Below the pieces are notes generated by a model. That model saw only the letters and a list, made by a program, of their open reading frames with translations. It did no database searches and was not told the origin of the DNA. Below are positions 19,034 through 25,602 of a DNA stretch of 43,125 bases, piece by piece. The stretch is from positions 1-43,125 of the forward strand of contig QEVD01000015.1 of NCBI GenBank assembly GCA_003576975.1, given 5' to 3'. The translations under genes were made by a program, and so were the position numbers. The number at the start of each line of letters is the position of its first letter. The stretch's first letter is position 1. This stretch comes from Candidatus Zhuqueibacterota bacterium (GTDB taxonomy: Bacteria > Zhuqueibacterota > Zhuqueibacteria > Zhuqueibacterales > Zhuqueibacteraceae).

Positions 19034-19397
19034 GAAGCGAGCCGGATCATCGCGTCTTGCCTCGCGCAAGCGAAACGAGACGAGGAAAGTCCGAACACGA
19101 TAGAGCAGAGTAAGAGGTAACGCCTCTCGCTAGTGATAGCGCTATAGGGCCACAGAAACCAGGTCTGTTCCGCCCTGCGGAATAAGAGTGAAAAGGGTAA
19201 CCAGTACTCCGTGCAAATGCAAATAGGCTTACGCTTGTCCCGCTTTTAAAAATTTTCAACGCTCTGGCGGGACATGAAGAGCGGCTCGCTCGAGTAAGCG
19301 GGTAGCATGCTCGAGGTTGCCGGCGACGGCAGCCCTAGATAAATGATGATCAGCCCGTTTCAGCGGGATACAGAATTCGGCTTACAGGCTCACTTCG
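19034..19397 (+). ncRNA. rnpB: RNase P RNA, type A-like
   Basis: The catalytic RNA of RNase P, which trims 5' leaders from tRNA precursors. Recognised by its conserved core: GAGGAAAGTCCGAACAC (19081-19097), CACAGAAACC, GTGAAAAGGGTAACC, GATAAATGATGATC and ACAGAATTCGGCTTACAGGCTC (19371-19392). The ends are placed by the P1 helix, GAAGCGAGCC (19034-19043) pairing with GGCTCACTTC (19388-19397), which has one C-A mismatch. The gene begins two bases after the stop of the zinc-ribbon protein gene and is followed within four bases by a strong terminator. No separate promoter is obvious, so it may be processed from a longer transcript. Confidence 0.95.
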
Positions 19398-19400
19398 ACA

Positions 19401-22901: not shown

Positions 22902-23079
22902 AGGATTGACTCTCATCGCCCGTTCGTTAAAGACGAAGATTGTCAGCCGAGCCCAACAATCCAGTCATGTTGAAAGCCGGCAAACGCTTTGTTATTTTGA
23001 TTTGGAAATTTTCCAGAAACTTTGCATAATGGCGTCATCAACTCTGCATTCCGTTTCAAAGAAATACAGGAGAATAATT

Positions 23080-23487
23080 ATGAGCCTGTGGGAAAAAATT
23101 GCAAAAGATTTGCAGCAAAGCGCCACAACATTCAGTGAAATGGCCAGTGATTTCATTAAAAGCGGCGCCGAAGTGATTCGTGAGGGTATTGAAGTAGCTT
23201 CCGAAAAAACCGCACAAGCCACCAAGCTCGCCAAGCTCAAGTGGGAAAAGAGCATGATCCATCGTGATATTGAGAAGGCCTTTCTCGCGCTCGGCGGTCA
23301 AGCCTATGAGCTTCACGTGCAGGGAAAGCTGGCAGATTTAGCGACGGTGGCTTTCGATAAGCTCGAAGAGTTGCGCATTCTCGAAAGCAAGCTTGACGGC
23401 AAAGATCAAGAAATTGCCGATCTCCAAAATACCGCCACGGCTAGCGCCCCCAAGCAAGACACAACGGCACATTCGACCCAATCATGA
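23080..23487 (+). CDS. Small coiled-coil protein upstream of a RuBisCO-like protein
   Basis: The 135-residue protein is helical and charged. Residues 1-50 are amphipathic (MSLWEKIAKDLQQSATTFSE), and 60-115 alternate hydrophobic and charged positions with HRDIEKAFLALGGQAYELHV. The last 20 residues are low-complexity (Ala, Thr, Ser, Gln). There is no signal peptide or membrane helix. I do not recognise a named family; it resembles small YtxH-like or apolipoprotein-like helical proteins. ATG 23080 is chosen because CAGGAG stands 7 bases upstream; the open frame continues upstream without support. Its stop is 18 bp before the RuBisCO-like gene, so the two are very likely co-transcribed and may work together. 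Confidence 0.75.
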   Translation: MSLWEKIAKDLQQSATTFSEMASDFIKSGAEVIREGIEVASEKTAQATKLAKLKWEKSMIHRDIEKAFLALGGQAYELHVQGKLADLATVAFDKLEELRILESKLDGKDQEIADLQNTATASAPKQDTTAHSTQS

Positions 23488-23505
23488 AATAGACAGGAGA
23501 CCAGC

Positions 23506-24684
23506 ATGAGTTACATCAACAAAGCCTATGAGCCCAAACCTACGGATGTCTTATGCAGCTATTATCTTGAACCGGCGCCCAAAAGAACCTTGATCGAGGC
23601 CGCCGAGGAGTTATGCAAGAAAGCTTCTGTTGATGTTTTAGGTGGAGAAATCGTGAGCAAGCTGCGCGCTTCCGCATACGAAGTGCATGAGGAGGGTACG
23701 CAGGTGGCCTTTCCTGCCGAGCTTTTTGAAGGCGGGAATATTCCGCAAATGTTGACGATCATCGCAGGCAAAATTTTTGGTTTGGAAAAAATTGCAAATT
23801 TACGTTTGCAGGATGTGCGCTTTCCGCAATGGTGGATAAAAAGTTTTCGCGGCTCTGCGTTTGGCAGCAAGATTGTCGAGAAGCATTTCGGCAATCCAGC
23901 GCGTCCGCTAGTGGCGTCACTCATCAGCCCGGAAGTCGGCCTGCCCCTCGAAGCATACAAAGAAAAGGCGGAGGCCTCGTTCTTGGGCGGGTGCGACATC
24001 GTGCGTGACAGCCCGCAGATTCACAACATGTCCCTCAATCCATTTGAGAAGCGTGTCGACGCAATTTTGGCGTTGACGCGAGAGTGTTCACAAAAAACCG
24101 GCATGCCGAAAATGTATTTTCCCAATGTCAGCGGCTCCGGCGATGTTGTGTTGAGTAGAATTAACTATGTGATGAAAAAAGGCGGGCGGGGCGTGGTAAT
24201 TGATTTTCAGGCGTGCGGTTTTAGTATCCTGCAAATGGTGCGCAATGAGTTCCCCGAATTGATCGTTTATGCCGATCGCACCTCGCATGCTGCGACAGCA
24301 CGAAATAAACGCCAAGGCATTTCAATGACAACGCTTGGCAAGCTGGCACGCCTCGCCGGCGCCGATCTCGTCGAAATCGGCTCTATTACCGGCGACATGG
24401 TCGAAACGGAAGCGCATGTCGTGCAACTGCATACGAATTTATTGGCAGATTTATTCAAGACGCGCGACCCGCATCGGTTTGATCAGAACTGGCACGGCAT
24501 CGGAAATAGCCTGCCGGTAACTTCCGGCGGCCTTAAGGCAAATGACGTGCGCGAATTGCGCAATCGTTTCGGCAATCAGATCGTGCTGCAATTCAATCGC
24601 AGCATGACGGGCAAAGAACACGTCTCGAAGCGCCACATCGAGATGTTCCTGGATGAGCTTGGCCCGCTGGTGCCGCTGGTCTAA
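23506..24684 (+). CDS. RuBisCO-like protein (form IV) with substituted active site
   Basis: The 392-residue protein follows the RuBisCO large-chain pattern: N-terminal LCSYYLEPAP, then AGKIFGLEKIANLRLQDVRF (87-106), GGCDIVRDSPQ (161-171), the DRTSHA...RQGIS stretch (257-273), LARLAGADLVEIGSITGDM (280-298), LPVTSGGL (336-343) and VLQF (360-363). Aligned by eye, catalytic positions are changed: Lys175 to Ser141, Lys177 to Glu143, the carbamylated Lys201 to Arg167, the Mg ligands Asp203 and Glu204 to Ser169 and Pro170, His294 to Asp257, His327 to Glu290 and Lys334 to Asp297. Only Arg295 and the SGG phosphate loop remain. It cannot fix CO2; its reaction, if any, is unknown. A GGAG site precedes ATG 23506. 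It sits 18 bp after the coiled-coil gene and before a strong terminator. Confidence 0.87.
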   Translation: MSYINKAYEPKPTDVLCSYYLEPAPKRTLIEAAEELCKKASVDVLGGEIVSKLRASAYEVHEEGTQVAFPAELFEGGNIPQMLTIIAGKIFGLEKIANLRLQDVRFPQWWIKSFRGSAFGSKIVEKHFGNPARPLVASLISPEVGLPLEAYKEKAEASFLGGCDIVRDSPQIHNMSLNPFEKRVDAILALTRECSQKTGMPKMYFPNVSGSGDVVLSRINYVMKKGGRGVVIDFQACGFSILQMVRNEFPELIVYADRTSHAATARNKRQGISMTTLGKLARLAGADLVEIGSITGDMVETEAHVVQLHTNLLADLFKTRDPHRFDQNWHGIGNSLPVTSGGLKANDVRELRNRFGNQIVLQFNRSMTGKEHVSKRHIEMFLDELGPLVPLV

Positions 24685-24720: not shown

Positions 24721-24750
24721 AAAAAAGGCTCGTCCTGCGAGCCTTTTTTT
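24721..24750. terminator. Bidirectional terminator after the RuBisCO-like gene
   Basis: The stem AAAAAAGGCTCG (24721-24732) pairs with CGAGCCTTTTTT around the loop TCCTG. The A-run before and T-run after let it serve both the RuBisCO-like gene on the plus strand and the convergent gene on the minus strand. Confidence 0.88.
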
Positions 24751-24769: not shown

Positions 24770-25282
24770 TCAGGCTGCTTCGAGTTGCGTGACTCGAACA
24801 TTCAAATTACTCTGGGCCTCATTCTGATCGCTATCAGATTCTTTCAAACGACTGATTTCATCTTTTAAGCGTGATTGTCCCGCCCAGAGTGAAGTTTTTT
24901 CCGTGTGAAACTCATCATACTGCTTTCGGACAAAATCCATCATTGTCAAAATCTCGTTGCGCAATTTCGCGTCGTTTTGCTCGATCGCTTCTATCCTTGC
25001 AAGCAGCATGCCTCCAAATGTCGCAAACTGCTTTTGAATCTTCACTTCGAATTTATAAAAGGCTTGTTTCATTTCCTGACGGAGCTTCGGGGATTCCTTT
25101 GCCGATTCCTGGCGAACCTTCTTGAATTCCCTTGCTGACTCTAGACGGAATTTCTTGAACTCTCGTTTTGATTCCCGACGCATTAACCCAATTTTGCTGG
25201 ACAAGCCATCCACTCTTTTCTCGAGTCGACTCGACCCATTATTGGGGAGCCGCCTTGTCTTCTTACGAGACTTCATAGGCAT
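24770..25282 (-). CDS. Coiled-coil protein with 11-residue repeats
   Basis: The 170-residue protein is basic at the N-terminus (MPMKSRKKTRR) and then forms a continuous coiled coil. Residues 35-78 contain four consecutive 11-residue units: RRESKREFKKF, RLESAREFKKV, RQESAKESPKL and RQEMKQAFYKF. Such hendecad repeats form right-handed or slightly unwound coiled coils. The second half returns to heptad-like spacing up to the end (LNVRVTQLEAA). No signal peptide, membrane segment or known family. ATG 25282 has GGAGGG 8 bases upstream; the open frame further upstream crosses a terminator and tRNA genes and is not coding. A terminator lies on each side. Function unknown. Confidence 0.72.
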   Translation of the reverse strand: MPMKSRKKTRRLPNNGSSRLEKRVDGLSSKIGLMRRESKREFKKFRLESAREFKKVRQESAKESPKLRQEMKQAFYKFEVKIQKQFATFGGMLLARIEAIEQNDAKLRNEILTMMDFVRKQYDEFHTEKTSLWAGQSRLKDEISRLKESDSDQNEAQSNLNVRVTQLEAA

Positions 25283-25361
25283 AAGGTTTTCCCTCCAATT
25301 TGAATTCGTGGCATGATAACGAGTCGTTTTTTGAGTCGCAACCATTTTTTTAAAACCTTTG

Positions 25362-25394
25362 CAAACAACAAAGGCTCGCACTAAGCGAGCCTCG
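25362..25394. terminator. Terminator after the tRNA-Lys pair
   Basis: AAGGCTCGC (25371-25379) pairs with GCGAGCCT (25385-25392). On the minus strand the stem is followed by TTTGTTGTTTGC, ending the tRNA-Lys transcript. On the plus strand it is followed by CGTTTTT. Its stem shares GGCTCG/CGAGCC with the terminator at 24721. Confidence 0.75.
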
Positions 25395-25422
25395 TTTTTC
25401 CTTCCTCCCTCTTGACCAACAG

Positions 25423-25495
25423 TGCGCCCACTAGGAATCGAACCTAGAACCTCCGGATTAAGAGTCCGCTGCTCTGCCAGTTGAGCTATGGGCGC
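25423..25495 (-). tRNA. tRNA-Lys (CTT)
   Basis: A 73-base tRNA on the minus strand. The acceptor stem is GCGCCCA with TGGGCGC and discriminator A. The D arm begins TAGCTCAACTGGCAGAGC, the anticodon loop is CTCTTAA (anticodon CUU, Lys AAG codon), and the T arm contains GGTTCGATTCC. CCA is not encoded. It is the second gene of a two-tRNA transcript. Confidence 0.95.
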
Positions 25496-25529
25496 TTGTC
25501 GCAAATTTGCCAGTTTAGAAAACAAACTG

Positions 25530-25602
25530 TGAGGGTGGAGAGAATCGAACTCTCGGCCAACGGCTTAAAAGGCCGCTGCTCTACCAGCTGAGCTACACCC
25601 TC
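25530..25602 (-). tRNA. tRNA-Lys (TTT)
   Basis: A 73-base tRNA on the minus strand. The acceptor stem is GAGGGTG with CACCCTC and discriminator A. The D arm is GCTCAGCTGGTAGAGC, the anticodon loop is CTTTTAA (anticodon UUU, Lys AAA codon), and the T arm contains AGTTCGATTCT. CCA is not encoded. It is 34 bp upstream of the second lysine tRNA, and a good promoter precedes it. Confidence 0.96.

Follow-up and report, generated by a model that had tools for sequence, protein, structure and literature searches.

What does a RuBisCO large chain become once its metal site is gone? The question is raised by a gene on contig QEVD01000015.1 (assembly GCA_003576975.1) of a Candidatus Zhuqueibacterota (candidate division KSB1) bacterium, in a stretch of 43,125 nucleotides that was analyzed as a whole (the window). 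A sequence-only reading of this locus had described a RuBisCO-like protein without the carbamate lysine and metal ligands, on a separate and very divergent branch of form IV, acting as a metal-free enzyme or a non-enzymatic binder and forming a two-protein unit with a small coiled-coil gene. Of most interest is the loss, across a whole lineage, of the K175/K201/D203 core, together with the fact that the residues kept form a largely complementary set; the pairing with the coiled-coil gene is a minor matter.

A RuBisCO-superfamily protein without the metal site

The gene was delimited by its open reading frame (ORF) and profile matches:

23506–24684, forward strand: gene for a RuBisCO-fold protein (RuBisCO-like, metal site lost), 392 amino acids from an ATG start

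The protein belongs to the RuBisCO superfamily. A profile search could have placed it elsewhere; instead, both domains were matched in order and over the curated cut-offs (PF02788 at residues 3–108, 84.5 bits, cut-off 20.7, E 8.9e-24; PF00016 at residues 128–364, 120.5 bits, cut-off 30.1, E 1.1e-34), and all four motifs quoted in the sequence-only reading are present in the ORF. The best of six NCBIfam matches was to form III RuBisCO (TIGR03326), at 265 bits under its cut-off of 497.45. Scores were lower on the models for the form IV proteins MtnW (81.2 and 109.3 bits versus cut-offs of 513.6 and 409) and OiaX (104.6 versus 700). A sequence search of the PDB returned 8dht, 6hun and reconstructed RuBisCO ancestors first, and the nearest relatives were form III RuBisCOs, with full-length identity up to about 36%.

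Residues are named here in what we take to be the usual spinach numbering, assigned by motif. The site was read on two separate MAFFT alignments, one of 94 rows and one of 42 rows that includes MtnW, OiaX and form I sequences identified by name. The former holds 94 of 105 loci, after removal of repeats (L001, L017, L023, L098, L099 and L102–L105) and two short loci (L092 and L093). The 22 site residues compared are those around bound 2-carboxyarabinitol bisphosphate (2CABP) in a figure legend of PMC9570433. The corresponding positions in the window, all on the forward strand, are as follows:

23620–23622: K39, in place of Glu60 (E60K) and invariant across the family
23770–23772: K89, at the position of Asn123; K or R across the family
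23926–23934: S141-P142-E143, at the positions of Lys175 (S or A in the family) and Lys177 (invariant E)
24004–24015: R167-D168-S169-P170, at the positions of the carbamate Lys201, Asp202, Asp203 and Glu204
24274–24288: D257-R258...H261, at His294 (now D), Arg295 (kept) and His298 (kept)
24346–24405: residues 281–300 (strand 6 plus loop 6); E290 stands at His327, D297 at Lys334
24523–24531: S340-G341-G342, at Ser379-Gly380-Gly381, kept
24595–24603: N364-R365-S366, at Gly403-Gly404-Gly405; every full-length member has R and S at the second and third of these
24661–24681: C-terminal tail, reading GPLVPLV in each of the five full-length members aligned; low predicted local distance difference test score (pLDDT)

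The eight positions that the sequence-only reading had named are indeed all changed, and both alignments agree on the replacements (K175S, K177E, K201R, D203S, E204P, H294D, H327E and K334D). The metal set of catalytic RuBisCO (forms I–III), Lys201/Asp203/Glu204, reads R, S, P in the window protein and R, S, P/H across its family, and Lys175, Lys177, His294, His327, Lys334, Glu60 and Asn123 have become S, E, D, E, D, K and K. Further departures from form I are E60K, N123K, T65V, W66, T173L, L335M, G403N and G404R, of which T173 and L335 are variable in form III too. Only R295, H298, S379, G380, G381 and F402 are kept (6 of 22 form I site residues, with 16 changed), compared with 10 in MtnW, 11 in OiaX, 10–15 in other full-length form IV rows, 18–20 in rows taken as form III, and 22 in form I. 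Relative to form III RuBisCO (Thermococcus kodakarensis, PDB 3a12; 8dht; Hyperthermus butylicus, 6hun), the metal ligands, the carbamate lysine and Lys175 are absent, and the chain stops earlier at its C terminus, as it does relative to RuBisCOs generally. The GPLVPLV tail that ends it may be a binding motif, being the same in five full-length members though the structure model is unsure there.

Loss of the core sets the family apart from every other homolog compared. K201 and D203 are present in all 87 other homologs of the 94-row alignment and likewise in MtnW and OiaX, and the Lys175/Lys201/Asp203 core is kept in the RuBisCO and form IV rows tabulated (one row is gapped at 175), including nine form IV rows (L011, L012, L015, L100, L124–L127 and L129). 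The form IV enzymes MtnW (2,3-diketo-5-methylthiopentyl-1-phosphate enolase) and OiaX (3-oxo-isoapionate-4-phosphate decarboxylase) have, like the window family, lost part of the carboxylase site. They keep K175, K201, D203, E204 and H294, whereas the window family lost these five and keeps H298 and G380; G381 is shared with both, R295 also with OiaX, and S379 also with MtnW. More broadly, form IV rows keep K175, K201, D203 and H294 and have changed elsewhere, and the window family shows nearly the reverse, with R295, S379 and G381 common to it and some form IV rows.

Metal residues at shifted positions, which the sequence-only reading had named as evidence against it, were looked for around strand 2, and no candidate lysine was found. 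Residues 158–184 are lysine-free in five of six members, and K182, the only lysine there in the window protein, lies 15 residues past the K201 position and is no substitute for it.

A family kept by selection in one KSB1 family

Members were found in seven of the eight genomes of the window's taxonomic family, its own included, across two genera (g1 and g2); in the eighth genome (G004, 79% complete) none was found. No member was detected in the other 74 of the 82 phylum genomes searched, 7 of which carry other RuBisCO homologs; the contig scan that found the relatives used two short patterns that kept 80 of 82 loci, and distant members could escape it. A scan of genome contigs with the single window protein gave nothing useful, none of 76 stretches from a viral contig scan was a relative, and the best match in a tblastn search of plasmids (217 records) was a form I sequence at 28.6% identity.

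Members are 60–85% identical to the window protein, leaving aside one from the same species. Their frames are open and stop-free in all seven genomes (the G005 copy runs off its contig), and the same eight replacements occur in all seven members tabulated, a count that includes the window protein and the other member of its species, position 175 being S or A and position 204 P or H. All six members aligned carry E60K, K177E, K201R, D203S, H294D, H327E and K334D, and all five that reach the position carry G404R. The ratio of nonsynonymous to synonymous change (dN/dS) was 0.076 (G001/G002) and 0.116 (G003/G006) by NG86, and 0.059 and 0.079 for these two pairs only by YN00; the other eight NG86 pairs gave 0.070–0.287 at dS >1 and are not relied on. 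The gene is under purifying selection. It is neither an artefact nor decaying, because it is present and open, with near-identical replacements, in seven of eight genomes at dN/dS values of about 0.06–0.12.

In five of the seven genomes with the protein, no other RuBisCO homolog was seen (one of the seven, G005, is 78% complete), and only G002 and G003 have a true RuBisCO as well. The protein was accordingly rejected as a general partner of true RuBisCO. The form III AMP route is not supported: AMP phosphorylase matches in all eight family genomes are below the cut-off (best 240.6 versus 535 bits), and matches of this kind turn up in all 14 control genomes too.

Proposed role of the altered pocket

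The two main readings of the earlier work, a metal-free enzyme or a non-enzymatic binder, still stand, and a metal-independent ligand binder is the most likely, a metal-free enzyme less so. We put at about even the chance that a form III-type RuBisCO became independent of metal, gave up carboxylation, had its pocket rebuilt with part of the charges swapped, and was fixed for a new role, as a ligand-binding pseudoenzyme, in one KSB1 family. A form III-type large chain would have lost carboxylation and metal dependence while probably retaining its ferredoxin-like domain and (beta/alpha)8 barrel. Head-to-tail pairing was presumably retained as well, because the N-domain residues lent to the neighbor's site changed along with the barrel side. 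In RuBisCO, Glu60 contacts Lys177 and Lys334; E60K and N123K/R together with K177E and K334D may thus represent an intersubunit ion pair swapped in polarity rather than lost. The pocket would no longer bind Mg2+ or form a carbamate. It keeps R295, H298, S379 and G380, on the phosphate side, and has gained acids (E143, D257, E290 and D297) plus an arginine at G404. Such a protein might sense, hold or deliver a small metabolite, perhaps one with a single phosphate or carboxylate; its working part would be loop 6 and barrel strands 5–7, with no obligate partner in most species.

Conservation among the five full-length members bears on this proposal. Invariant positions make up 57 of 89 on the catalytic face versus 86 of 167 in other parts of the barrel (P = 0.064); for the site itself the count is 15 of 21 (hypergeometric P = 0.084). 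Both results are suggestive and not significant. In seven sets of other RuBisCOs, the face reaches 0.78–0.91 versus 0.44–0.69 elsewhere, these controls being unmatched (sets of 2–5 rows, lowest identity 0.63–0.75 versus 0.60 here). The most conserved 20-residue block is residues 281–300, covering strand 6 and loop 6, with 19 of 20 invariant (controls, 0.75–0.95). Constraint on the face hence looks weaker than in working RuBisCOs, save at strand 6 and loop 6, a pattern more in keeping with binding, centered on a single working corner, than with a full enzyme, and nonetheless compatible with catalysis.

Several points weigh against a ligand-binding pseudoenzyme, the mismatch of those controls among them. 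The invariance of 15 of 21 site positions is suggestive of a pocket that is not simply neutral. D257, E290, D297, E143, R167 and H261 are ordinary acid-base residues that a metal-free enzyme could use. The ion-pair swap traces to a single branch and does not count as independent covariation. For the Glu60-Lys177/Lys334 contact behind it, a literature search gave no match for a Glu60 salt bridge, and published passages on the site name Glu60, Lys177 and Lys334 only as lining one site. The confident structure model depends on RuBisCO alignment rows, and six members alone gave a mean pLDDT of 51.5 and a predicted template modeling score of 0.50.

The closest competitor, a metal-free enzyme, is possible and in our judgment unlikely. 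It might catalyze, for example, an isomerization, enolization or retro-aldol reaction, with D257, E290, D297, H261 or R258 as acid or base and a one-phosphate substrate gripped by R258 and S340. The ionizable residues at catalytic positions are invariant despite the divergence among members, the strand 6/loop 6 block is the most conserved, and the R295, H298 and S379 positions are kept; in RuBisCO, loop 6 is described as folding over the ligand (passage in PMC5786004). Against this, the catalytic face as a whole is barely more conserved than other parts of the barrel, unlike in other RuBisCOs, and no pathway genes were seen among the profiled neighbors. To our knowledge, the characterized members of the superfamily all use the metal site.

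A purely structural or assembly role is improbable. The protein would serve as a scaffold or decoy subunit, for instance joining a true RuBisCO or binding a partner via GPLVPLV, and the pocket charges would do no more than hold the dimer. The identical tail, the charges changed on both faces of the presumed dimer contact, and the coiled-coil gene adjacent in one genus fit this idea. It is not a general RuBisCO partner, however, because in five of seven genomes no RuBisCO homolog was seen besides the relative itself; the other genus, moreover, yielded no coiled-coil homolog.

Descent

In two careful trees with form IV rows, the family fell inside the set of form III and form I sequences (support 98/99 and 100/98). 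Forcing it into the form IV clade cost 7.9 and 12.0 log units, with approximately unbiased (AU) test P values of 0.206 and 0.059. The family stem is long (1.57–1.72 changes per site), and the position within form III is not settled by these trees. A quick 90-row tree had joined the family to the long L012/L015 branch, a warning of long-branch attraction, and was replaced by the trees with fewer rows. Rows dropped were L097, L016, L028 and L090 from the quick tree and L091 and L129 from the careful trees, the second also omitting L012, L015 and L127. For seven of the archaeal, Patescibacteria and Ammonifex rows, the "form III" label was checked against NCBIfam: five pass, and two (L033 and L037) score 425 and 451, under the form III cut-off.

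Form III descent is favored, not shown. Membership of a very divergent form IV lineage, in place of derivation from form III, has a small chance of being correct. Form IV has been described as a group without the active-site residues of characterized RuBisCO (passages in PMC5575542), and by that wording the family, with 16 of 22 form I site residues changed, would qualify. The AU test does not reject a joint clade, and the quick tree placed the family with two long form IV branches. A caution comes from the MtnW-like KSB1 protein L100, which scores 268 bits on the form III model, as high as the window protein. L100 also scores 395 on a MtnW model, whereas the window protein reaches 109 or below on the MtnW and OiaX models. 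Beyond its own family, the window protein best matches form III sequences, and both careful trees place it in the form III/I set. The sequence-only reading was right about the lost carbamate lysine and metal ligands and about a separate, very divergent branch; its placement as a clear form IV branch did not hold, with sequence, profile, fold match and careful trees nearest form III and a form IV clade not rejected by the AU test. A pseudogene, contamination or assembly error, to which the aberrant motif residues and a draft genome of 776 contigs might point, has practically no chance, given the open frames in seven genomes of two genera, the low dN/dS, and a conserved start and ribosome-binding site.

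Relation to known systems

Somewhat short of even, and tentatively, we would describe the family as a second, independent exit from RuBisCO chemistry, in which a form III-type protein gave up the Mg-carbamate site altogether, reversed the charges in the pocket between its subunits and took on work as a metal-free enzyme or sensor. If true, this would make the family almost the inverse of form IV proteins, where the metal site stays and other parts change. A strongly selected lineage without the core suggests a scaffold useful without metal chemistry, and offers a natural test of which RuBisCO elements (fold, dimer, loop 6 or phosphate grip) can persist when catalysis is taken away. As a caution, a RuBisCO profile match such as this one, seen in five genomes without another RuBisCO homolog, is not to be counted as carbon fixation.

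In the available part of a Global Ocean Sampling survey, only N123, K177, D198, F199, H327 and G404 of 19 site residues are poorly conserved, and K175, K201, D203 and E204 are not among them (PMC1821046). The accessible text of a paper on the phylum reports form I rbcL and the Calvin cycle in one order and has no occurrence of "rubisco-like" (PMC11683472). Among literature titles and abstracts, none concerned this protein and no paper combining "candidate division KSB1" and "RuBisCO-like protein" was found; this does not establish absence from print, key reviews being outside the coverage.

Form I RuBisCO occurs in the same phylum (L008–L010 and L014), and G003 holds both proteins. L008, L010 and L014 have 22 of 22 site residues, and all four form I genomes carry a small subunit. 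Separately, the RuBisCO L013/L104 (G002 C1:463443-464570) has 22 of 22 site residues and is sister to form I rows in trees; G002 is listed as 100% complete and gave no small-subunit match, which may indicate a form I type without small subunit in KSB1. L012 (G008) and L015 (G011) are K-D-D-H-type RuBisCO-like proteins of 538 and 525 amino acids as extracted. L015 carries a Cupin_2 domain at its C terminus (E 1.7e-12); L012 seems similar to it in sequence.

Gene neighborhood and local features

Other features around the gene, all on the forward strand, are as follows:

22970–23030: candidate sigma-70-like promoters 5' of the coiled-coil gene, weak at 9 of 12 consensus positions (6 sites in the region versus 1.9 expected, which is no evidence of function)
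23080–23487: gene for a small coiled-coil-type protein, 135 amino acids from ATG; upstream neighbor in genus g1 only
23495–23499: AGGAG ribosome-binding site, 6 bases 5' of the ATG at 23506, read from sequence
24721–24749: hairpin of 13 pairs and T run resembling an intrinsic terminator, 3' of the RuBisCO relative (a scan weak alone, with 8 sites in the region versus 3.6 expected in shuffles)

The 18-bp gap from the stop of the coiled-coil gene is real and has the same length in the three genus-g1 species checked, and the ribosome-binding site is kept in G001 and G002. A general two-protein unit was not borne out. The gene order in genus g1 is VIT/VWA protein, coiled-coil gene, RuBisCO relative, and the coiled-coil gene adjoins in four of the eight family genomes, all of this one genus and two of one species. 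No coiled-coil homolog was found in the other four, three of which carry the RuBisCO relative without it alongside. An obligate pair as a general rule was therefore rejected, adjacency being limited to one genus. The coiled-coil gene evolves at dN 0.17 and dS 0.79 against G001, and the window copy matched no Pfam or NCBIfam family over cut-off. In 62 of 81 phylum genomes there are relatives with E up to 0.001, many of which match only weakly; in the five genomes outside genus g1 seen to have both (G008, G011, G035, G061 and G062), they lie on different contigs from the RuBisCO homologs.

Other neighbors identified by profile in the window include leucyl- and aspartyl-type tRNA synthetases, a phosphotransferase system EIIA protein, a zinc-ribbon coiled-coil protein, a nucleotidyltransferase, TonB and ExbB. 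The gene setting differs in genus g2. Eight neighbors profiled in G003 include an O6-methylguanine-DNA methyltransferase, an AAA ATPase, a heme-binding protein, a TIR protein and SusD/TonB-dependent receptor genes. Among the profiled neighbors, a part of the total, in the window and G003 settings, no cluster for a sugar-phosphate pathway was recognized.

Downstream on the reverse strand, the longest-start ORF at 24770–25525 runs over a tRNA-Lys gene (25422–25495), and its true start is probably closer to its 3' part; positions 24773–25420 gave no Pfam match. A second tRNA-Lys lies at 25529–25602 (reverse strand). Further upstream, positions 19034–19400 (forward strand) match bacterial class A RNase P RNA over its full length.
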